Source: Pseudomonas hydrolytica
GTDB taxonomy: Bacteria > Pseudomonadota > Gammaproteobacteria > Pseudomonadales > Pseudomonadaceae
Assembly: GCF_021495345.1 (NCBI RefSeq)
Contig: NZ_CP099397.1
Span: forward strand, 2,356,001 to 2,420,000
DNA length: 64,000 nt
Reading direction: 5' to 3'
Positions 2 through 13,091 of the stretch are shown here, piece by piece. Every line of letters begins with the position of its first letter. Positions within the stretch are counted from its first letter, which is position 1. The notes beneath the pieces were generated by a model. The model made no database searches and was not told where the DNA came from. It worked only from the letters and a program-made list of their open reading frames with translations. Made by a program: the position numbers and the translations under genes.

Positions 2-190
2 GCCAAGGCCCGTCGTACCTCGACGCTGGAAGAGGTGGCCGGTATCGGTCCCAAGCGGCGGCGCGAGCTGCTCAATCACTTCGGCGGGCTGCAGGAACTG
101 TCCCGCGCCAGCGCCGAGGAAATCGCCAAAGCGCCGGGAATCAGCAAAAAGCTCGCAGAGTTGATTTATGCCACCCTGCACAGCGAGTAG
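2..190 (+). CDS. uvrC: UvrABC excinuclease subunit C, C-terminal end (partial)
   Basis: Only the last 62 codons are in the window; the gene begins upstream. The reading frame ends with the helix-hairpin-helix region typical of the UvrC C-terminus ([13 protein letters not shown] followed by [13 protein letters not shown]), the part that binds DNA near the damage and supports the 5' incision in nucleotide excision repair. The stop is 33 bases before pgsA, and uvrC-pgsA followed by tRNA genes is a standard Pseudomonas order. Identification is from the motif and this context. Confidence 0.9.
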
Positions 191-223
191 AATGCCCGTT
201 CACCTCGCAGCCTAGTTGTGCCG

Positions 224-784
224 ATGAATATCCCCAACTTGCTTACCGTGCTCCGGGTTCTGCTGATTCCGGTTTTCATCCTGCTGTTCTACCTGCCGTT
301 CTCCTGGAGCTACTGGGCCGCCAGCGCAGTGTTCGCCATTGCCGCCGTGACCGACTGGCTCGACGGTTATCTGGCCCGTCGCTGGGAGCAGGGCACGCCT
401 TTTGGCGCCTTCCTCGATCCGGTTGCTGACAAATTGATGGTGGCGGTGGCTCTGGTGCTGTTGACGGCCGAACACTCCAATCTCTGGCTGACGCTGGCGT
501 CGGCGACCATCATCGGTCGCGAGATCGTGGTGTCGGCATTGCGTGAATGGATGGCCGAGCTTGGGGCTCGTGCACACGTGGCAGTGTCCAATCTCGGCAA
601 ATGGAAAACTGCGGCACAGATGGTGGCCTTGGTGATTCTGCTGGCCAATCCACCTCAGTTCACCGTCTGGGTGATCCTCGGATATGCCTTGCTGATCATC
701 GCTGCCGTGCTGACTTTGTGGTCGATGCTGCAGTACCTGTTGGCCGCCTGGCCGCACCTCAGCACCACCTCCGAGAAGAAATAA
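224..784 (+). CDS. pgsA: CDP-diacylglycerol--glycerol-3-phosphate 3-phosphatidyltransferase
   Basis: An inner-membrane enzyme of 186 residues that makes phosphatidylglycerol phosphate from CDP-diacylglycerol and glycerol-3-phosphate, the committed step to phosphatidylglycerol and cardiolipin. The CDP-alcohol phosphotransferase signature is complete near residues 45-70 (LDGYLARRW ... [10 protein letters not shown], with the spaced Asp residues). Several hydrophobic membrane segments follow, and the length is normal. The ATG at 224 is chosen because [11 protein letters not shown] is the usual family N-terminus; a GTG two codons upstream is the alternative. It follows uvrC closely and is probably co-transcribed with it. 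Confidence 0.95.
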
Positions 785-851
785 TTATTTTTGAATCAAA
801 GGGTTGACGCGGCGATTCGATTCTATAGAATGGCGCCCGTCGACAAGACAA

Positions 852-927
<76 letters not shown>

Positions 928-965
928 GTTTTACACGAGTCGCCAAGGCGGCTCGTTTGATTTAA

Positions 966-1039
966 GGCTGAGTTGCAGAGTGGTTATGCACCGGATTGCA
1001 AATCCGTGAACGCCGGTTCGATTCCGACCTCAGCCTCCA
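966..1039 (+). tRNA. tRNA-Cys (anticodon GCA)
   Basis: A 74-nt cloverleaf with acceptor GGCTGAG/CTCAGCC, anticodon loop ATTGCAAAT, T-loop GGTTCGATTCC and encoded CCA. It lies 38 nt after tRNA-Gly and is followed directly by a terminator hairpin, so the two form one transcript. Confidence 0.97.
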
Positions 1040-1047
1040 ATTCGAAA

Positions 1048-1082
1048 AGCCTCGTAGATCACTGATTTACGAGGCTTTTTTC
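1048..1082 (+). terminator. Rho-independent terminator after tRNA-Cys
   Basis: Perfect 9-bp stem AGCCTCGTA (1048-1056) / TACGAGGCT (1068-1076) with an 11-nt loop, followed by a run of T. It separates the tRNA-Gly/Cys unit from tRNA-Leu. Confidence 0.9.
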
Positions 1083-1159
1083 ATTCTCCAAGGCAGGTGT
1101 TGCGTGCCTTGCGGGTAAGCGAAGGGCTGTATATAGTCCAGCCCTTCCACAGCGCTGCC

Positions 1160-1246
1160 GCCCGAATGGCGAAATCGGTAGACGCAGGAGACTTAAAATC
1201 TCTCGCTCGCAAGGGCGTGCCGGTTCGAGTCCGGCTTCGGGCACCA
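1160..1246 (+). tRNA. tRNA-Leu (anticodon TAA)
   Basis: An 87-nt tRNA with a long variable arm (class II), acceptor GCCCGAA/TTCGGGC, anticodon loop ACTTAAAAT (anticodon TAA), T-loop GGTTCGAGTCC and encoded CCA. Its 3' end is the integration site of the following island; the gene itself stays intact because the island restored the 3' half. Confidence 0.97.
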
Positions 1247-1248
1247 TT
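1223..1248 (+). repeat. attL-type repeat: 3' end of tRNA-Leu
   Basis: GTTCGAGTCCGGCTTCGG followed by GCACCATT, the end of tRNA-Leu. The same 18-mer followed by CACCATT recurs in direct orientation at 6666-6690, so this is one end of an element that integrated in the T-arm/acceptor part of the tRNA. Confidence 0.85.
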
Positions 1249-1287
1249 GACATGATTTCAGATGATCCCGTATCAGTCTGAAACCCA

Positions 1288-1317
1288 ATAAAACCGGCGC
1301 ATGTGGCCGGTTTTTTT
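1288..1317 (+). terminator. Rho-independent terminator after tRNA-Leu
   Basis: 8-bp stem AAACCGGC (1291-1298) / GCCGGTTT (1306-1313) followed by T residues. It ends tRNA-Leu transcription just inside the island and would insulate the island from the tRNA promoter. Confidence 0.8.
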
Positions 1318-1352
1318 GTGCCCGTATATTTTCAAATGAGCCTGTACAGTCT

Positions 1353-1381
1353 CATTTTTAGGGATACGTTTAGGGATACGG
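1353..1381. repeat. Left arm-type repeat pair of the island
   Basis: CATTTTT followed by two tandem copies of the core AGGGATACG separated by TTT. A near-identical block lies just inside the other island end at 6582-6613. Paired direct repeats flanking the attachment core are what integrase arm-type binding sites look like; that role is inferred. Confidence 0.6.
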
Positions 1382-1382
1382 A

Positions 1383-1890
1383 TGGTTCGACGGAAATGCT
1401 CCAGCAGGCGCCCACAATCGACCGGACGCAAGCGCGCATCTTTCGGCTTGATCTTGGTCTTGATGAAGTCGGTAAAGGTCATGTCGGCCATTGGGTTCTT
1501 GCCGATCAGGCCGAGGCTCGCGGCCTGCTTGAATGCAACCTTGAGCACGCCGAACACCAAACGCACATGCGCCACGCTGCATTGCGATTGCAGCGGCCAC
1601 ATCAGCTTGGTGTCTAGCGTGGCATGGTTCAGTTCGACCAAACGCAGCGCGCCGAGGCAGGGCAGTAGCTGGCATTTCACCGCCGAGCGTGCCGTGGCTT
1701 TTCGGTTCTTGCTCAGGTTGCCGTCGTGCGCGACGCGATGCGTATACCACTCCAGCACCTCGCTGACGGTTGACCAACCGGACGTAGACAGCGCGCCCGA
1801 TTGTGGCTCGATTGCAAGGCGTTGCATGACGCTAGGCAGCACCGACAGCACCGCCTTCGGGTCTGTAAGCGGCGTTACAGTGCGAGCCAT
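1383..1890 (-). pseudogene. int: Tyrosine integrase, N-terminal half, inverted and separated from the catalytic half
   Basis: Reading on the minus strand from an ATG at 1890, about 170 codons encode the N-terminal and core-binding part of a phage-type tyrosine recombinase (for example VSEVLEWYTHRVAHDGNLSK, then KNPMADMTFTDFIKT and RLRPVDCGRLLEHFRR). Similarity stops at 1383, where the frame runs into the arm-type repeats; the open frame continues to 1273 but that tail is not integrase. The catalytic half lies head-to-head on the plus strand at 1905-2468. Turning 1383-1905 over would put the codons for LLEHFRR-T directly before RYRHETTAV, giving one continuous gene with its start just after the arm repeats. 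No catalytic residue lies in this half. Confidence 0.8.
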
Positions 1891-1904
1891 AGGGATCGTT
1901 TTGG

Positions 1905-2468
1905 GCCGCCCGTTACCGTCACGAAACCACGGCGGTCGCTCTGGCGGTGCTGATGCTGGCCCACGGCACGCGGATCGGTGAAACCCGCCAAGCCAAGTGG
2001 CGGCACTTCGACCTGATCGGCAAGACCTGGCATATCCCAGCCGTCGACACCAAGACCAAGAAAGCCCACACCCTGCCACTCACCGCCCAGGTGTGCGCCT
2101 TCCTGGCCCGCTATCGTGCTAGCCAGGTGGCCCGAGGTTATGACGGCGCCTACCTGTTCCCCGGCGTGCAGGGCCGCCCCTTCAGCGAAATGCAGGCGCA
2201 GTTGGCGTTTACCGCGTTGTCGGGCGAGCAATGGACCAGCCACGACCTCAGAAAAACCGCGCGCACCGCCTGGACTGACCTGGGCGTCGATTACCTGATC
2301 GGCGAGCTGCTGCTGAACCATGCGCTGAAGGCCCTGGACGTGACCTATATCCACACCACGGCCGAGGCACAGAAACGTCAGGCTCTGGAGCGCTGGCATG
2401 CCTGGCTCGATGAGCGCGGCTTTGCCGCCCTGCACAGTGCGGCGGGGGTGACTGACGCCAGGACATAA
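1905..2468 (+). pseudogene. int: Tyrosine integrase, C-terminal catalytic half
   Basis: An open frame without its own natural start encodes the catalytic domain of a tyrosine recombinase. The first catalytic Arg is in HGTRIGETRQAKW, the H-x-x-R box is in SHDLRKTARTAW, the later His is in LLNHALK, and the nucleophilic Tyr is in DVTYIHTTAE. All catalytic residues are present, so the domain is not decayed; it is only cut off from its N-terminal half, which lies inverted at 1383-1890. The next gene begins on the opposite strand. A short internal GTG (1947) could start translation but would give only a catalytic fragment. Confidence 0.8.
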
Positions 2469-2557
2469 GCGAGACAGGCCAACCCCAGCCCCTACCGCCC
2501 AGGCCAGCGGCGGCGGGGCTGGGCAGGAGGGTCAGAAATTGATTACAGGGGAGTAGG

Positions 2558-3661
2558 TTATAAAGTGGATCGGACACCTACTGTCGAGAACGGATATGGC
2601 CTGTTTGCAAGCGCATCTTGGCCTCGCTCGGCATCGGGTTGACCTATACCGCTTCGAAATTTCTCCAAGGCAAAATTGCGCCACTCATCAGGCATAGTGC
2701 GCCACCAAGAGGGCCGCATGTACGTATTCTCAAGGTGCTCAAATGCCAGCTGGATTACAGCTGTGGCCTTCTCCACATTCGGTATACGCTTAAACGACTC
2801 AACAAACGAAGCTACTTGGCTGTCGCTCCCTCCCAACCATCCAAAGGCGGCAACAGATACACCGTTCAAGGTGGTCAGATTGAATGCGACATGGTCGAAA
2901 TCGGCACTACCTCTGCCGAGAATCTGCAGCTGAGAGCCGTCAAAATCGACTTCTGGATGAAATGCACCGCAGGCAACTACAGGCAGAACGTCATCGAATT
3001 CAATCGCGTAGACTGAAAAGTCAGAGAGATCACCCTGGCGAAGTGCTATGTCATAGCGATCTTTCCATCTCTCCAAGTCTGCTAGACCTCTTTTCATACC
3101 TTCAAAAGAGTAGTGGAGACGGGTCTGGATCGCGGCTTGGATGAAGAAGGGGGTTCCAGAATCTAGCTCGCGTTGGATGGGCACGCCTTTAAGCGCCGCC
3201 CGCTTGGTGAACAGCTCAAATGCAATGGCGCGAAATGTCAAAAGAAATACGCTTTCGCGAGATAGCGTGACTGCACCATTCTCAACAGGGCGAAAAAGCT
3301 CTGTGTCGTGCCTGCTACAGAAGCCGTTAAACGTGGAAGCACTTCGCACACCTATCTCAGCAGGCTCAAGACTTCCGCCATTTTCGAAGATATCTTCGAT
3401 GCCAGCTTTTGACGACATTACATGGCCTTGCTCCGCTATATCTGCAAGGCCGCCTCGGCGTTGAATTGTGTGTGCTCGAACTATTCCTTGACTGCACGTA
3501 TCCGGCTCGGCGTCTGGATGGGAGCAATAACCCTCGACATACTGACGCCTCAAATCTGCAAGTAGTTTTCCAATGTTGGGGCGCTTGCGCTTATCTCGCC
3601 CTTTATGACACCACTTCCACTTAGTGCCTGACCCACACCAGCAAGGCTGATAGGGGTCCAT
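2558..3661 (-). CDS. SEC-C motif protein with an additional Cys/His cluster, function unknown
   Basis: A 367-residue island protein. The N-terminus carries a SEC-C zinc-binding motif (PCWCGSGTKWKWCH, residues 7-20). This is followed by a second Cys/His-rich stretch: C..H around residues 45-60, AHTIQRRGGL, then STFNGFCSRHD near residue 120, which looks like an HNH-type metal site. The remaining 240 residues have no motif I recognise. SEC-C motifs occur in SecA and in many mobile-element proteins as protein- or nucleic-acid-binding modules. The ATG at 3661 is preferred because the motif then sits at the extreme N-terminus; an upstream ATG at 3730 is possible. It is divergent from the nuclease-like gene. 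A defence or regulatory role is inference from the setting only. Confidence 0.6.
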   Translation of the reverse strand: MDPYQPCWCGSGTKWKWCHKGRDKRKRPNIGKLLADLRRQYVEGYCSHPDAEPDTCSQGIVRAHTIQRRGGLADIAEQGHVMSSKAGIEDIFENGGSLEPAEIGVRSASTFNGFCSRHDTELFRPVENGAVTLSRESVFLLTFRAIAFELFTKRAALKGVPIQRELDSGTPFFIQAAIQTRLHYSFEGMKRGLADLERWKDRYDIALRQGDLSDFSVYAIEFDDVLPVVACGAFHPEVDFDGSQLQILGRGSADFDHVAFNLTTLNGVSVAAFGWLGGSDSQVASFVESFKRIPNVEKATAVIQLAFEHLENTYMRPSWWRTMPDEWRNFALEKFRSGIGQPDAERGQDALANRPYPFSTVGVRSTL

Positions 3662-4359
3662 GTGCTCACGCGGGTGAATAGGTTCAGGTTCTGAGAAGGC
3701 CGCTGTTAACGATGGATGGGGCGGTAGCATGATTGTCTATCCGGGGCAAAGGTTCAGGCCCCCCGAGAGTAGCGCTAAGAGGAACATAAGCAAAATACGG
3801 TCGTCAGGCCCGCCCGGTTCGCGGATTTTCCGGCGCGGTGAAATCGGTGCCCTTTGTCCACCTTTTTTGACCATAAAACAGGTCAGCCGAGCACCTAAGG
3901 CGTTGTTTTTCCTGGTGTCCACCGCCTAAAGAAAAGGTGGCAAGGTGGACATATCCATGCACCTCAATACTCGGCTAGTTACACCACAACCCGCGTAGCT
4001 ACTGGCCTCCCTAAGCCCATGGAGGGGGTATCCAGATCCCTAGCATCTCATCGCCCCGACACCGAACGCCTAGACGTTTTCACTGGGCCGCGAAATAAGA
4101 GATTTAGCGCTGTCTGTCGGGTGGTCGTGCCCCCCCTGTTCAATTGTGTCCATCTACTCAGTCAGCTGCCTTCGTACTGATCGACGATGCGCCTGGCTTG
4201 AAAAATTGGATCAATACACGCCACCATGACTGTTCTGGCATTGGCGCCGCAGTAGGCGAGCATCTCTCGTGATTTTGGCTGACTCTACGGGTTTAAAGTT
4301 AAAAGTTTGATCTAGAGATTTTTGTTCTCGTGCTAAATTTAAATTGCTTGAGGGAAAAG
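3662..4359. other. Intergenic region between the two divergent island genes
   Basis: About 700 bases with no convincing gene. It must hold both divergent promoters; the last 80 bases before the nuclease-like gene are strongly A/T-rich (around 4290-4345), as expected for a promoter. A 9-bp inverted repeat GTCCACCTT / AAGGTGGAC lies at 3856-3864 and 3942-3950. Short open frames here show no family resemblance that I can support. Confidence 0.5.
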
Positions 4360-6581: not shown

Positions 6582-6613
6582 CATTTTTGTTTAGGAATAC
6601 GTTTAGGGATACG
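6582..6613. repeat. Right arm-type repeat pair of the island
   Basis: CATTTTT, GTTT, then AGGAATACG and AGGGATACG separated by TTT, in the same orientation as the left block at 1353-1381. It ends about 50 bp before the right tRNA-Leu repeat. The position just inside the att repeat and the conservation argue for recombinase binding sites. Confidence 0.55.
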
Positions 6614-6665
6614 TGTTCTGTGGGGTGGCCGCAGAGGCCAGATGCAGCCTGGCCTCTGGTTATGT

Positions 6666-6690
6666 GTTCGAGTCCGGCTTCGGCACCATT
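6666..6690 (+). repeat. attR-type repeat: duplicated 3' end of tRNA-Leu
   Basis: GTTCGAGTCCGGCTTCGG followed by CACCATT, identical to the tRNA-Leu 3' end except for one missing G in the acceptor stem. It marks the distal island boundary. Confidence 0.85.
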
Positions 6691-6984
6691 TAAATCAAGC
6701 GCTTACGGTTTTTCGCGGCTGTATAGCTTGGTCCGCAATTTACGCCGTGGTCCGCAATCGATCAGATCAGCAAGCAGCTGATCGGCGTTACTGCCAGCAA
6801 TCATGTCATGAAACGTTCCTGCCACGGATGATCACCCGTCAAGCCGGCCCCGGTCGCTGCTTGCACCGTGGTGCTCAAGCTAGCCTCGCAAACCCCATTC
6901 TCGCATCCGCCTTTTAAGCCAGATACTTTCCTTGACTTCTAGCCTGCGAGGCGCAGACTTTGTCAAGTAACAGCAGCAAACCCC

Positions 6985-7342
6985 TTGGGCTTGGCTGGAT
7001 TTGGTTTTCCGACGCTTGTCATGCCGCGCTTGCCGTTCGATTGGCTAGGCATGCTGAAGCTGGCGCTGGATATTCAGGAAACCGGTAAGCAGCACAGGAT
7101 TTCCCTCGACGGTCCCGGTGTCGAGGAAAAGGACATCCAGATCACGCCCGACAACGACGTGCCGATGGTGCGAGGTGAAAGCGCCAGGAGCCAGAGAAGA
7201 GCGAAGTGGCTTTTCTCGTGTCGAACTTCCCTACGGCAGTTTCCAGTGTGCACTGAACCTGCCCGACGATGCCAACCAGGATTCGAAGCGCGAAGCAAGT
7301 GCACCGAAGCACGGCCGTTCGATTCCGATTGAAGCTGAGTCG
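6985..7342 (+). pseudogene. Small heat-shock protein Hsp20, frameshifted remnant
   Basis: Pieces of an Hsp20 alpha-crystallin domain lie in two reading frames. The first frame gives PFDWLGMLKLALDIQE and GPGVEEKDIQITPDN; after about 7180 the similarity shifts frame to GFSRVELPYGSFQCALNLPD and then a C-terminal RSIPIEAE carrying the IxI-type motif. No single open frame covers the gene and no proper start is visible, so it is inactive. It lies directly upstream of clpG, where heat-resistance loci carry an intact hsp20. The roughly 290 bases between the island end (6690) and this remnant contain no gene that I can support. Confidence 0.75.
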
Positions 7343-7435
7343 GATATTTCCATTGCGGTCGCCACGAAGTCCCACCAGGAAACGAGGCGCCGCGGCCTGC
7401 GGCCCTCGTCATCTCAATGACCAAGGAGCGTCCGC

Positions 7436-10279
7436 ATGGCCAGGAAGCAATGTCAAATCTGCGGCCAACCCGCCACGGCGCGGGTGGAAGCCAATCTCAA
7501 TGGTCGCCTCACCACCATGCTGTTGTGTGACGATCACTATCGCCAACTGGTGCGCCAGCAAAAACGCGCCATTTCCCCGCTGGAAGCCCTTTTCGGCTCG
7601 CGCAGCGGTCTGTTCGAAGATTTTCTTGGCAGCGATTTCTTCCGCATCGGAGAAGAGTCGGCACCGGCTGCAGCCGATGCCGATGAAGTGGTCGATGCGT
7701 CGTTTGGCGAACCAGCCTCCACAGCGTCGGGCGCGCCGCGCCGTCGCGGCAGCGGGTTGGCCAGCCGCATCAGCGAGCACTCCGAGGCTCTGTTGCAGGA
7801 AGCCTCCAAGCATGCCGCGGACTTCGGTCGCTCCGAAGTCGATACGGAACACCTGTTGCTGGCGCTGGCCGACAGCGACGTGATCAAGACCATCCTGAGC
7901 CAGTTCAAGATCAAGGTCGATGACCTCAAGCGCCAGATCGAAGCCGAGGCCAAGCGCGGCGACAAGCCGTTCGAAGGCGAGATCGGCGTGTCGCCGCGGG
8001 TGAAGGATGCGCTCAGCCGCGCCTTCGTCGCCTCCAATGAATTAGGACACTCCTACGTCGGGCCCGAGCACTTCCTGACCGGTCTGGCCGAAGAGGGCGA
8101 GGGGCTGGCCGCCAACTTGCTGCGCCGCTATGGCCTCACGCCGCAGGCCCTGCGCCAGCAGGTAAACAAGGTGGTCGGCAAAGGGGCGGAGGATGGCCGC
8201 GCCGAGACGCCGACCAATACGCCGGAGCTCGACAAGTATTCGCGCGATCTCACCAAGATGGCCCATGCGGGCAAGCTGGATCCGGTCATCGGCCGCGCGC
8301 AGGAAATCGAAACCACCATCGAGGTGCTGGCGCGGCGCAAGAAGAACAACCCCGTATTGATCGGCGAGCCTGGCGTGGGCAAGACCGCCATCGTCGAGGG
8401 GTTGGCGCAGCGCATGGTGGCTGGCGAGGTGCCCGAGACGCTGCGCGACAAGCGCCTGGTGGAGCTGAACATCAATTCCATGGTGGCCGGCGCGAAGTAC
8501 CGTGGCGAGTTCGAGGAACGCGTGCAGAAGGTGCTGAAGGAGATCGCCGAGCACCAGGGCGAGATGATCCTCTTCATCGACGAGGTGCACACCATCGTGG
8601 GTGCCGGCCAGGGCGGTGGCGAAGGCGGGTTGGACGTGGCCAACGTCTTCAAGCCGATGATGGCGCGCGGTGAGCTGAACCTGATCGGCGCGACGACGCT
8701 CAACGAGTACCAGAAGTACATCGAGAAGGACGCCGCGCTGGAGCGGCGCTTCCAGCCGGTCATGGTGCCCGAGCCAACGGTGGCGCAGACCATCATGATC
8801 CTGCGCGGCCTGCGCGATACCTTCGAAGTGCACCACAAGGTCAGCATCACCGAGGACGCGATCATCGCGGCCGCCGAGCTGTCCGATCGCTACGTCACCG
8901 CGCGCTTTTTGCCGGACAAGGCCATCGATCTGCTTGATCAGGCTGCCGCCCGCGTGAAGCTGTCGGCGACGGCCCGCCCCGTTGCGGTGCAGGAGTTGGA
9001 GGCCGAACTGCACCAGTTGCGCCGAGAGCAGGACTACCTGGCCTCCCGCAAGCAATACGACAACGCGGCGGAGGTCGGCAAACGCATCGAAGCCAAGGAG
9101 GCCGAACTCAAGACGCAGGTCGAGGACTGGGAACGCGAGCGCGGCTCGGGCAGCGCCGAAGTCAAGGCGGAACACGTGGCGCAGATCGTCTCGCGCCTGA
9201 CCGGAATTCCGGTCAATGAGCTGACGGTGGAGGAGCGCGAGAAGCTGCTGCACCTGGAGCAGCGGCTGCATGAGCGCCTGGTGGGGCAGGACGAGGCGGT
9301 ACGCGCTGTGGCGGATGCGGTGCGGCTGTCGCGCGCGGGACTGCGCGAAGGCAGCAAGCCCGTGGCCACGTTCCTGTTCCTGGGTCCCACCGGCGTCGGC
9401 AAGACCGAGCTCGCCAAGGCGCTGGCCGAATCCGTCTACGGCAACGAGGGCGCCCTGTTGCGCATCGACATGTCGGAGTACGGCGAGCGTCATACCGTGG
9501 CGCGGCTGGTGGGCGCTCCACCGGGCTACGTCGGCTATGACGAAGGCGGCCAGCTCACGGAGAAGGTCCGTCGCAAGCCCTACAGCGTGCTGCTGCTCGA
9601 CGAGATCGAGAAGGCCCACCCCGATGTCTACAACATCCTGCTGCAGGTGTTCGACGACGGGCGGCTCACCGACGGCAAGGGGCGCGTGGTGGACTTCACC
9701 AACACCATCATCATCGCCACCTCCAACCTGGGCTCCGACATCATTCAGCGCCGGCTGAAGGCGCGCGGAGCGGCCGGCGAGGAGTACGAGAAGACCAAGG
9801 CAGAGGTGATGGACGTGCTGCGCGGGCACTTCCGCCCCGAGTTCCTCAACCGCATCGACGAGCTCATCGTCTTCCATGCGCTGGGCAGGGAGGAGATCCG
9901 CCACATCGTCGGCCTGCAACTCGAGCGCGTGGCCCGCAATGCCGCGAGCCAGGGGGTGACGCTGACTTTCGATGGGACGCTGGTCGATCACTTCGCGGAA
10001 GAAGGCTACAAGCCCGAATTCGGCGCTCGCGAGCTCAAGCGACTGATTCGCAGCGAGCTGGAAACGGCACTGGCGCGCGAGATGCTCGGCGGTGGCATCG
10101 GCAAGGGCGATCACGCCCATGTACGTTGGGACGACAAGTCGGAGCGGGTCGCGTTCGACCGCGAGCAACCTGCTCCGACCAGCGCCGAAGCACCCTCTGA
10201 ATCTGCGCAACCGCCGGGCCCGCCCAGGGAGTCGAGCAAGGGGACGCGCAAGAAGAAGTCCGAAAGTGGCAAGGCATGA
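7436..10279 (+). CDS. clpG: Clp/Hsp100 disaggregase of the ClpG/ClpK type
   Basis: A 947-residue AAA+ disaggregase. The N-terminus has a Cys-rich zinc-finger-like extension (CQICG ... LLCDDH, residues 6-36) that is diagnostic of ClpG/ClpK rather than ClpB or ClpC, followed by Clp_N repeats (about 110-240). The first AAA+ domain has Walker A GEPGVGKT near residue 310 and Walker B LFIDEVHT near 380; the second has GPTGVGKT near 650 and [12 protein letters not shown] near 720. The C-terminal tail is basic and low in complexity. The family dissolves heat-aggregated proteins without DnaK and gives high thermotolerance. The ATG follows an AAGGAGCG ribosome-binding site. The neighbouring hsp20, ftsH remnant, psiE and kef genes mark a transmissible stress-tolerance locus. 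It appears intact. Confidence 0.93.
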
Positions 10280-10393
10280 GGCACGGGGCTGCCCTAATCC
10301 TGAAAATGGGAGACGGGCAGCCCGTCCAACCAGATGCGGCGTCCCTGCGCGCGCGTGGTGGAGTACGCGCGACATCCTGCCGTGACGAACTGG

Positions 10394-10504
10394 TGCGCTG
10401 CCGACATCGCCCGCGAAATGACCACGTGCTTCGGCATGGACGAAGGCCTGGGCTGGCACAAGAGGCGCAGCGACCGCGATTTTTTGGGAGTGGCCTGTTT
10501 CTGA
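10394..10504 (+). pseudogene. FtsH C-terminal remnant
   Basis: A frame of 36 codons reading ADIAREMTTCFGMDEGLG ... RDFLG resembles the end of the FtsH protease domain (AxDIARxMVTxFGM...LG). It has no upstream coding sequence for the ATPase, so it looks like the scar of a deletion removing most of ftsH. Heat-resistance loci carry ftsH downstream of clpG, which supports the reading. The match is short, so this is a moderate call. Confidence 0.5.
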
Positions 10505-10515
10505 AGGAGTGGTGC

Positions 10516-10986
10516 ATGAACAACAGCAATCAGACCGGGACGACACTCGAACGACTGCGCCGCGACTGGGCGGTGATGACGTTTTACGAACGCTTCGAGC
10601 AGGCCGTCGCCATCATCCTTTCAGCGGTGATCGCGGTGATTATCCTGGTGTCCCTGGCGCAGCTGATTCAGATTGTCTTCAGCCTGCTGATCATCGATGC
10701 ATTCAATCCGCTCGACCACAAGATCTTCCAGACTGTGTTCGGCATGATCATGACGCTTCTGATCGCGATGGAATTCAAGCACTCCATCGTGCGCGTGGCC
10801 CTGCGCCGTGACAGCATCATTCAGGTCAAGACCGTCATCCTGATCGGGTTGATTGCCCTGTCCCGCAAGTTCGTGATTCTCGATCCCGATGTCGGCCCGG
10901 CCAAAGTCGCCGCATTGGCCGGCGCCACTCTGGCCCTGGGGCTGACCTATTGGCTGTTGCGTGAGCGCGATGACCGCATTGTCTAG
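10516..10986 (+). CDS. psiE: PsiE-family inner-membrane protein
   Basis: 156 residues with four predicted membrane segments (around 38-60, 75-95, 110-125 and 130-148), matching the phosphate-starvation-inducible PsiE family in length and pattern, including FKHSIVRVALRRDSIIQVKTVILIGLIALSRKFVI as the characteristic central stretch read in two parts. The start at 10516 has AAGGAG about 8 bases upstream. The biochemical function of the family is unknown. A psiE copy is a standard member of transmissible stress-tolerance loci, usually beside the kef gene as here. It follows the ftsH remnant directly, so it has probably moved next to clpG by deletion. Confidence 0.85.
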   Translation: MNNSNQTGTTLERLRRDWAVMTFYERFEQAVAIILSAVIAVIILVSLAQLIQIVFSLLIIDAFNPLDHKIFQTVFGMIMTLLIAMEFKHSIVRVALRRDSIIQVKTVILIGLIALSRKFVILDPDVGPAKVAALAGATLALGLTYWLLRERDDRIV

Positions 10987-11309
10987 GACGTCACGCCTGC
11001 CAGCGGGTGGCCCAGGCCACAAACGTCGAGTCTGGCTACGGCATCGCTTGAGCGACCGCCGACAGGCAGTGCTGCCGGTTTGCACTTTGATCGGTATCAC
11101 TCGCCGGCGGCCTTTTACTCGGCGAAAGGGGGCTGTGGATCGCCCCGGGAGCAAGCCTACTTGCCTTGTTATTCGAACCGGCGGCAGCTGCAGCGCCGAC
11201 GCTGAAGTTGTATGGCGCACGTGCCATCCGGTCGGGTGAAGCACCCGAAATCGAGGGTGTACGAACGTTTACCTGTAACCGCTCCTGATACGGACTGAGG
11301 ATCAAGGCT
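10987..11309. other. Intergenic region between psiE and the Kef antiporter
   Basis: About 320 bases without a supportable gene. It contains an 18-base stretch (11026-11043) that matches the tRNA-Leu 3' end at 16 positions (TCGAGTCTGGCTACGGCA), possibly a degenerate attachment copy or chance. The stretch probably holds the kef promoter. Confidence 0.4.
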
Positions 11310-13091
11310 ATGGCCGCTGAAGGCAACGCAGGGCAATTATTGGGTGTCGTTACGTTGCTTGCCGCCGCCGTGGTGGCAGTGCCGCTGCTCAAACGCATCG
11401 GGTTCGGCTCGGTGCTGGGTTACCTGGCGGCGGGGATGATGATTGGTCCCTTCGGACTGCAACTGATCCATGACCCCCACACCATCATTCGGGTGGGCGA
11501 GCTGGGTGTGGTGATGTTTCTCTTTGTGATCGGACTGGAGCTGAAACCCTCGCATCTATGGGAGCTGCGCGGGCAGATCTTTGGCCTGGGCAGCCTGCAG
11601 GTGGTGGTCTGTGCTGTTCTGCTCACCTTCGTCGGTATGGCCTTTGGTTTCCCCTGGCAGGTGTCGTTTGTGTGCGCGGCCGGTTTTGTACTCACATCCA
11701 CGGCCTTGGTTATGCAGGTCCTCTCGGAGCGCGGTGACATAACCGAGCCGAGGGGGCAGCGCATCGTGTCCATTTTGCTGTTTGAAGACCTGTTGATCGT
11801 GCCGTTACTGGCGGTGGTGGCTTTTCTCGCGCCCACTGAAGTGGTGCATGAACCCACCTCACCGCTTTGGCAGCGCATAGGTATCGCCGCCTTGTCCTTG
11901 GGCGCACTGGTGGCCATCGGATTGTGGCTGCTCAATCCGCTGTTTCGGGTATTGGCTCAAGCCCGGGCGCGCGAGGTGATGACCGCCGCTGCGTTGCTGG
12001 TGGTGCTGGGTGCGGCGCTGCTGATGGAAATCGGCGGGTTTTCAATGGCGATGGGGGCGTTCGTTGCCGGCGTGCTGCTGTCGGAATCCACATTTCGCCA
12101 CCAGCTGGAGGCCGACATAGAGCCGTTTCGCGGTCTGCTGCTGGGGCTGTTTTTTCTTGGCGTCGGCATGGCGTTGGATCTGCAAGTGGTGGCCACGAAC
12201 TGGATGCTCATCACCTCTGGTCTGCTGGCGCTGATGCTGGTCAAGGCGCTGTGTATTTATGCGGTCGCGCGCCTCGCGAAGAGCTCCCATGGCGACGCGC
12301 TGGATCGCGCCGTGCTTATGGCGCAGGGGGGCGAATTTGCTTTTGTGCTGTTTGCCGAGGCGCTCAAGCTCAGGGTCATCAGTCCCGAGGTCAACGCCAA
12401 TATGACGGCTATCGTGGTGCTCTCCATGGGCGTTACGCCGGTGGCCTTACTGCTGTACAGGCGGTTTGCGCGCGCACAAAGCGTTTCCATGGACGGCGTG
12501 GAGCCCGCACAGAATCTGCAAGGCAATGTACTCATCATCGGCTTTGGCCGCGTGGGGCAGATTGCCTGCCAGGCACCGCTCGCTCAGGGAGCGAAACTTT
12601 CCATCATCGAGATAGATCCGGAGGTGATCCGCGCCGTGGAACCCTATGGTTTCAAGGCCTATTACGGTGATGGTGCCCGCCATGAAATATTGCACGCTGC
12701 CGGTGCTCATCACGCCCGCGCCATCATCGTTTGTGTGAACGACAAGAAAGCCGCGACACGCATAGTCGAAAGTACGCGGCATTACTGCCCGCAAGTGAAA
12801 TTGCTGGTGCGTGCCTTTGACCGCGAACATGCGCTGGAGCTGGTCAAGCACGACGCGGACTACATAGTGCGGGAAACCTTTGAGTCGGCCCTGCTGCTCG
12901 GCCGTCAGGCCGTGCTGACGCTGGGGGCGTCTGAGCACGAAGCCGACGCGGTGACCGAGGAAGTGCGCATGCGCGATGCCGAGCGTTTTGCCCTGGAAAC
13001 AACGGGTGGTCTGTTTGCCGGGCGAGCGTTGGTACTGGGAAATATCGAGCGTATCGAACCGCCGAACCAAGAAGCGCGGGACGCCCAGTGA
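11310..13091 (+). CDS. Kef-type monovalent cation:proton antiporter (CPA2) with RCK domain
   Basis: 593 residues. The first 390 are a run of hydrophobic membrane segments of the CPA2 exchanger fold, beginning VVTLLAAAVVAVPLLKRI and including the family's GFVLTSTALVMQVLSE segment. From about residue 407 a soluble RCK (TrkA-N) nucleotide-binding domain begins with the Rossmann motif VLIIGFGRVGQIA. It should exchange K+ or Na+ for H+ across the inner membrane, gated by a ligand at the RCK domain. Its place after psiE corresponds to the kefB/kefC gene of heat and oxidative stress-tolerance loci, where it is thought to help with oxidant or pH stress. It appears intact. Confidence 0.88.
   Translation: MAAEGNAGQLLGVVTLLAAAVVAVPLLKRIGFGSVLGYLAAGMMIGPFGLQLIHDPHTIIRVGELGVVMFLFVIGLELKPSHLWELRGQIFGLGSLQVVVCAVLLTFVGMAFGFPWQVSFVCAAGFVLTSTALVMQVLSERGDITEPRGQRIVSILLFEDLLIVPLLAVVAFLAPTEVVHEPTSPLWQRIGIAALSLGALVAIGLWLLNPLFRVLAQARAREVMTAAALLVVLGAALLMEIGGFSMAMGAFVAGVLLSESTFRHQLEADIEPFRGLLLGLFFLGVGMALDLQVVATNWMLITSGLLALMLVKALCIYAVARLAKSSHGDALDRAVLMAQGGEFAFVLFAEALKLRVISPEVNANMTAIVVLSMGVTPVALLLYRRFARAQSVSMDGVEPAQNLQGNVLIIGFGRVGQIACQAPLAQGAKLSIIEIDPEVIRAVEPYGFKAYYGDGARHEILHAAGAHHARAIIVCVNDKKAATRIVESTRHYCPQVKLLVRAFDREHALELVKHDADYIVRETFESALLLGRQAVLTLGASEHEADAVTEEVRMRDAERFALETTGGLFAGRALVLGNIERIEPPNQEARDAQ

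Follow-up and report, generated by a model that had tools for sequence, protein, structure and literature searches.

A tRNA-Leu island relic in Pseudomonas hydrolytica probably grounded by a deletion and an inversion in its integrase genes

Main finding

The beginning of a 64,000-nucleotide stretch of the Pseudomonas hydrolytica chromosome (contig NZ_CP099397.1, positions 2,356,001–2,420,000; hereafter the window) holds what is most probably the relic of a grounded tRNA-Leu island, left by an illegitimate deletion and an inversion with both integrase halves dead (estimated probability 0.88). Directly observed were how the genes are arranged in relatives, what has been deleted and inverted, that repeats persist at either end, and that another strain has the same inverted chimera. 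In the ancestor, an integrase (A) would have stood beside the tRNA gene, with a primase-like module and then another integrase (B) behind it. A deletion of 6.7 kb would have left ~12 codons at the start of A, fused to codon 70 of B, and a 508-bp piece comprising the 5′ end of A and the N-terminal and central part of B would have been inverted in the same event or later, presumably by end joining with approximately 2 bp of homology. Neither half would be expected to produce a working recombinase, and the island could presumably not leave by itself. Since the deletion and the flip of half a gene removed most of the integration machinery, the island is probably stuck in the chromosome.

Organization of the island and its integrase remnants

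At the start of the window, chromosomal genes are accompanied by a run of tRNA-Gly, tRNA-Cys, and tRNA-Leu, the last of which is the attachment gene of the island (Table 1). Attachment and arm-type repeats stand at both ends (1222–1246 and 6666–6690 for the attachment repeats), and the length of the relic could therefore be set at approximately 5.4 kb. The arm-type repeats that an earlier note on this DNA had reported near the left end were confirmed as a double repeat, which recurs at the right end with a chance expectation of 0. A grounded island would be recognized by the retention of both attachment repeats and by a defective recombinase of its own. Both repeats were retained, with the right tRNA-end copy one base shorter, and in the sequence A is gone beyond ~12 codons and B is split and devoid of codons 1–69, so that both would be defective.

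Table 1. Features of the island and matches to the P. toyotomiensis locus (L072). Coordinates are those of the window; codons of integrase B are counted from the ATG at L072 9329.
Feature	Coordinates	Strand	Evidence
tRNA-Leu(TAA), attachment gene of island	1160..1246	+	ARAGORN
Left attachment repeat, tRNA-Leu 3′ end	1222-1246	+	repeat search
Double arm-type repeat, left end, TTTAGGGATACG x2	1357..1380	+	
Inverted segment, 508 bp, ends share 2 bp (AA/TT)	1395..1902		blastn and alignments
Inverted N-terminal/central part of integrase B (codons 70-223)	1395..1857	-	L072 9536-9998, 95%
Deletion junction, 6718 bp of L072 (2818-9535) missing	1856..1857		
Integrase A 5′ remnant, leader and ~12 codons, ATG at 1890	1857..1902	-	
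Catalytic half of integrase B (codons 224-411) in ancestral orientation	1902..2468	+	PF00589, E 1.1e-17
Island cargo ORF, 390 aa, SEC-C motif under curated cut-off	2558..3730	-	
Island cargo ORF, 708 aa	4330..6456	+	ORF list
Right-end double arm-type repeat with 1 mismatch	6590..6613	+	
Right attachment repeat, tRNA-Leu 3′-end copy, one base shorter	6666..6690	+	blastn 96%, E 9e-4
clpK, heat-survival disaggregase gene	7436-10279		NCBIfam ClpK
Block 1	5-1396		blastn, L072 1378-2771
Block 2, start of integrase A	1902-1856	-	blastn, L072 2770-2817
Block 3, integrase B	1857-1395	-	blastn, L072 9536-9998
Block 4, integrase B	1901-2564		blastn, L072 9997-10660

The description of two integrase halves lying head to head proved to be real, with the catalytic half on the plus strand (PF00589) and the 5′ piece on the minus strand from 1890 to 1395. 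The latter had been taken for the N-terminal half of a single integrase; it does consist of integrase N-terminal sequence, but is itself an A/B chimera, and its A portion matched L072 2770–2817 and, in P. composti (L069), 2654–2701 by blastn. The earliest start codon of the catalytic half (1902–2468) lies at 1947, and its DNA identity was 99% to P. composti and 98% to P. toyotomiensis (blastn). The genome of P. hydrolytica contains a single N half, and 1902–2468 is its sole close C half, the next match standing at E 3e-12.

Regarding the cargo, the 708-aa ORF revealed no Pfam family at E 0.01 and no PADLOC family, while a weak YraN-like stretch could be seen. It is flanked by right-end sequence on one side and by the right arm repeat on the other, and is missing from that place in P. 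toyotomiensis. The clpK gene lies just past the right repeat, outside the island. Window positions 6590–12000 were 93% identical to L072 15102–20544, and this similarity suggests that a second element may follow in tandem.

Comparison with intact relatives

A scan of named genomes yielded 14 loci. The same run of tRNA-Gly, tRNA-Cys, and tRNA-Leu precedes three of them, in P. toyotomiensis (L072), P. composti (L069), and P. guineae (L073), and among these three, the integrase closest to that of the window was carried by P. toyotomiensis and P. composti. Both species have an intact island at tRNA-Leu, in which integrase A is followed by the primase-like module and integrase B. Integrase A is 436 aa long and shows arm-binding, central, and catalytic Pfam domains in P. 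toyotomiensis. Integrase B is 411 aa long if started at the ATG at L072 9329, in agreement with the 411-aa database protein P0068. The interval between A and B, here named the primase-like module, contains ORFs with toprim and DUF927 domains. A profile search found two integrases in each of the two islands, spaced 5128 and 5244 bp apart in L072 and L069 (coordinates read by eye), and the same layout was present in L069, L070, L072, and L073. At L070 2330–4078 (P. xionganensis) a two-integrase module lies behind a tmRNA gene, indicating that related modules use different RNA-gene sites.

Alignment of the window with P. toyotomiensis resolved four main blastn blocks (Table 1), and the same four were obtained with P. 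composti. In the comparison at tRNA-Leu that the earlier note had called for, integrase B is continuous in both species, and both inversion junctions stand in the ancestral order. Both sides of the deletion are likewise kept in the ancestral state in these two islands. The left double arm-type repeat is identical in both and differs by one base in P. guineae, and a comparable tRNA-end repeat was located at the corresponding position in P. toyotomiensis and P. composti, giving island sizes of approximately 12.6 kb and 9.6 kb, respectively (both by eye). Relocation of the lost 6.7 kb to another part of the genome was considered and rejected, as the 6718 bp of missing DNA had no match in the own genome (single contig, 5.29 Mb) while the same query matched five of five relatives as a positive control.

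Genus survey and other broken integrase B genes

The genus sample consisted of 298 genomes including the own genome, and matches were accepted at E ≤ 0.001. The C half was matched in 254 of the 298 genomes and the N half in 75. Among the 89 listed N-half matches outside the own genome, 85 had a C-half match within 2 kb, and all 85 pairs lay on one strand in the normal order, with 0 in opposite orientation; the four unpaired matches were the weakest, and for these the C-half matches used, the 90 strongest, offered no partner. Both halves shared strand and frame in 58 fetched loci, some of which contained the same gene twice. Further, of the 14 loci from named genomes, 13 had collinear halves and one had no N-half match. 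Collinearity throughout the paired matches and fetched loci makes the head-to-head order of the window exceptional. When the whole split gene was searched against 144 relatives, 30 matched at 64–96% identity, and every match except that in the own genome was partial.

Of 40 fetched loci drawn from the 85 paired loci of the genus sample, at least five (L117, L118, L141, L144, and L151) were recognized by eye to have another integrase ahead of B and in its orientation; B thus mostly stands alone.

Other rearranged copies of B were also found. In P0005 the start of A is fused to B at a different point, and in P0002 and L071 primase-module sequence is fused to B, all joints having been read by eye. 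Because the protein search was limited in length, it favours short fragments, and the share of broken B genes is uninformative. The integrase B fragment P0001, from a 4407-bp metagenome contig, begins within a few residues of the right breakpoint of the window (...IH|WAARY), perhaps because this linker broke there independently, and its upstream peptide had no source among the loci compared.

A viral source was rejected: a 17-mer of the left junction occurred in two viral contigs, both of which were unrelated according to blastn with the first 12 kb and tblastn with the halves, and the deletion-junction and right-junction patterns were unmatched in viral contigs. Distant matches occurred in seven plasmid records, and in each of them less than 80% of the query was covered. 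Among the literature titles and abstract openings listed, none concerned an integrase split by inversion.

Breakpoints of the inversion

The earlier note had placed the breakpoints at 1383 and 1905, which were corrected by comparison with P. composti and P. toyotomiensis to 1394|1395 and 1902|1903, with a 2-bp ambiguity. At each junction, neighbouring blastn blocks have 2 bp in common, and both ends of the inversion share AA/TT; chance would give an overlap of at least 2 bp at 18% of random junctions. The end repeats that had been proposed, ACGGATGG and ACGGGCGG, match in only six of eight bases and lie outside the breakpoints. As a control, 2000 pairs of 40-bp windows were drawn at random in the region and close pairs were skipped; of the 1823 pairs used, 1712 contained an inverted 8-mer match of at least 6/8 and 629 one of at least 7/8. 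The best inverted 8-mer match at the true breakpoints was 7/8, no better than chance. Among the 21 inverted-repeat pairs in 1300–2000, none had one arm at each breakpoint.

Age and decay of the inverted allele

In P0065, a protein from a 7380-bp metagenome contig, antisense DNA of the B catalytic half runs straight into MARTVTPLTDPKAVLSVLPS. This read-through indicates that P0065 carries the right inversion junction together with the A/B fusion; the evidence covers these two joints. In the N half, 108 of 109 residues matched the window, and 5 of 55 antisense residues differed (start residue left out). The presence of the same inversion despite these residue differences shows that the allele is inherited and arose before the two strains separated. 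Accordingly, of the "recent chance inversion" offered by the earlier note, the chance inversion was upheld by the 2-bp junctions and the ancestral order in two relatives, but "recent" holds only in part, as the inversion predates the split from the strain of P0065.

The statement that neither half had decayed was largely correct: in both halves the part derived from B is free of stops, but one base beside the junction, present in P. composti, P. toyotomiensis, and P. guineae, is lost in the window, and the decay is thus slight rather than nil. P0065 appears, from its protein, to keep the reading frame that this loss removed. Of the codon changes specific to the window, 11 in the N half are silent and 3 replace a residue; in the C half, 1 is silent and 3 replace a residue. 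The absence of stops from the B-derived parts and the mostly silent changes of the N half indicate slight decay by point mutation, a point against the main reading, and the silent changes also suggest that most N-half divergence probably accrued under protein constraint.

Divergence was compared between 1395–1857 and 1902–2465. The N half differed from P. composti at 24 of 463 positions and the C half at 4 of 565 (Fisher p 9e-6, with sites not independent), and the corresponding differences between P. composti and P. toyotomiensis were 16 and 8 (p 0.04). A single simple event does not explain the greater divergence of the N half, which stands as a counterpoint to the main reading; the unequal divergence of the halves points to mosaic recombination.

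Alternative explanations

The earlier note had raised a phase-variable switch, in which flipping of 1395–1902 turns the island integrase on and off. Such a switch would fit the two open and well-conserved halves, the inheritance of the inverted form in more than one strain, and the right junction, where the L072 blocks abut with no bases gained or lost, thus keeping the frame (by eye). Invertons are described as segments with inverted repeats of 10–40 nt at both ends, to which an invertase binds; the invertase gene is often nearby (PMC11892184). No inverted repeats of 10–40 nt flank the segment at 1394/1902, and no invertase gene was found close by: the three serine recombinase (PF00239) matches of the genome all lie outside the window, and the only tyrosine recombinase (PF00589) match within it is the broken C half. 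Moreover, flipping the segment back, which had been expected to restore a continuous integrase, produces a chimera that lacks the first 69 residues of B and all of A past ~12 codons. The missing first residues of B putatively bind arm sites, judging from the family, although the Pfam scan of B named no arm-binding domain. An un-inverted chimera of ~356 aa was absent from the best 120 of 869 B-related proteins after 8000 candidates had been scored, with the limit that clustering at 90% could hide one; the inverted chimera was found in one other sample (P0065). An invertase encoded elsewhere in the genome could conceivably act on the segment. With no flanking repeats, no other recombinase gene of the two common families in the window, and a gene incomplete in either orientation, the reversible switch was rejected as scarcely tenable. 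An assembly error of the own genome, which would explain the restriction of the head-to-head order to this one among the genomes searched, is hardly credible at all: the genome is one contig, and P0065, from a metagenome assembly, shows the same junction and chimera and yet differs at 5/55 and 1/109 residues, on which ground this possibility was dismissed.

It is unlikely that integrase A or B itself made the inversion through recombination between an arm-type site and some secondary site within B. The arm repeats and the leader of A form a 13-bp hairpin in P. toyotomiensis (L072 2734–2783; z −3.2, with 3 of 200 shuffles folding equally well), and the left breakpoint falls at its inner edge, which would agree with such a reaction; inversions between attP and secondary sites are mentioned as a possible way of grounding prophages (PMC6379469). 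Strand exchange would, however, be expected at the tRNA end, and the breakpoint is ~150 bp away from it. At L072 9998, the right breakpoint, no arm repeat was present with up to three mismatches, the nearest being at 9226–9237, and no tRNA-end repeat was present either. The lack of both repeats there speaks against the integrases themselves, and their action at arm or core sites was rejected. A hairpin-provoked break is possible at the left breakpoint. Very unlikely, too, is that the inverted A–B chimera is maintained and horizontally shared to lock the island in place; the same right junction does occur in at least two diverged strains, and the changes of the N part are mostly silent. If the lock were selected for, this would be a neat case of domestication, while nothing here demands selection. 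Illegitimate deletion and inversion remain the simplest explanation. The genome contains 19 PF00589 matches, including relatives of integrase A (best 3.8e-62), and another of its integrases could perhaps excise the island in trans.

Significance and comparison with known systems

The event looks like ordinary decay of a known kind, that of a grounded element, and is informative about decay. It illustrates in detail how a two-integrase tRNA island can become stuck, with one deletion and one inversion breaking both recombinases while the end repeats remain. Opposed open gene halves need not mean a switch, and this caution arises because the intact relatives revealed integrase A and the missing 6.7 kb.

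The window resembles the invertons described in PMC11892184 in having a flipped DNA segment that interrupts a gene, and departs from that description in lacking 10–40 nt end repeats, a nearby invertase, and a complete gene after restoration. GInt islands are described with a ginABCD operon of three integrases and a small fourth protein (PMC5385486), and likewise bear more than one tyrosine recombinase per island; unlike in that description, the intact relatives show two integrases 5.1–5.2 kb apart, and none of the four larger ORFs between A and B of P. toyotomiensis is an integrase. Among the changes reported for grounded prophages are inversions and deletions (PMC6379469). As in that account, the attachment repeats are kept, the recombinase gene is broken and the element is probably fixed; the present case differs in being a small island at tRNA-Leu, whose loss of excision we infer. 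The islands of P. toyotomiensis and P. composti share with the relic the same site, the arm repeats, and integrase B (98–99% DNA identity in the catalytic half), but differ in still having integrase A, the primase-like module, and a full-length B.
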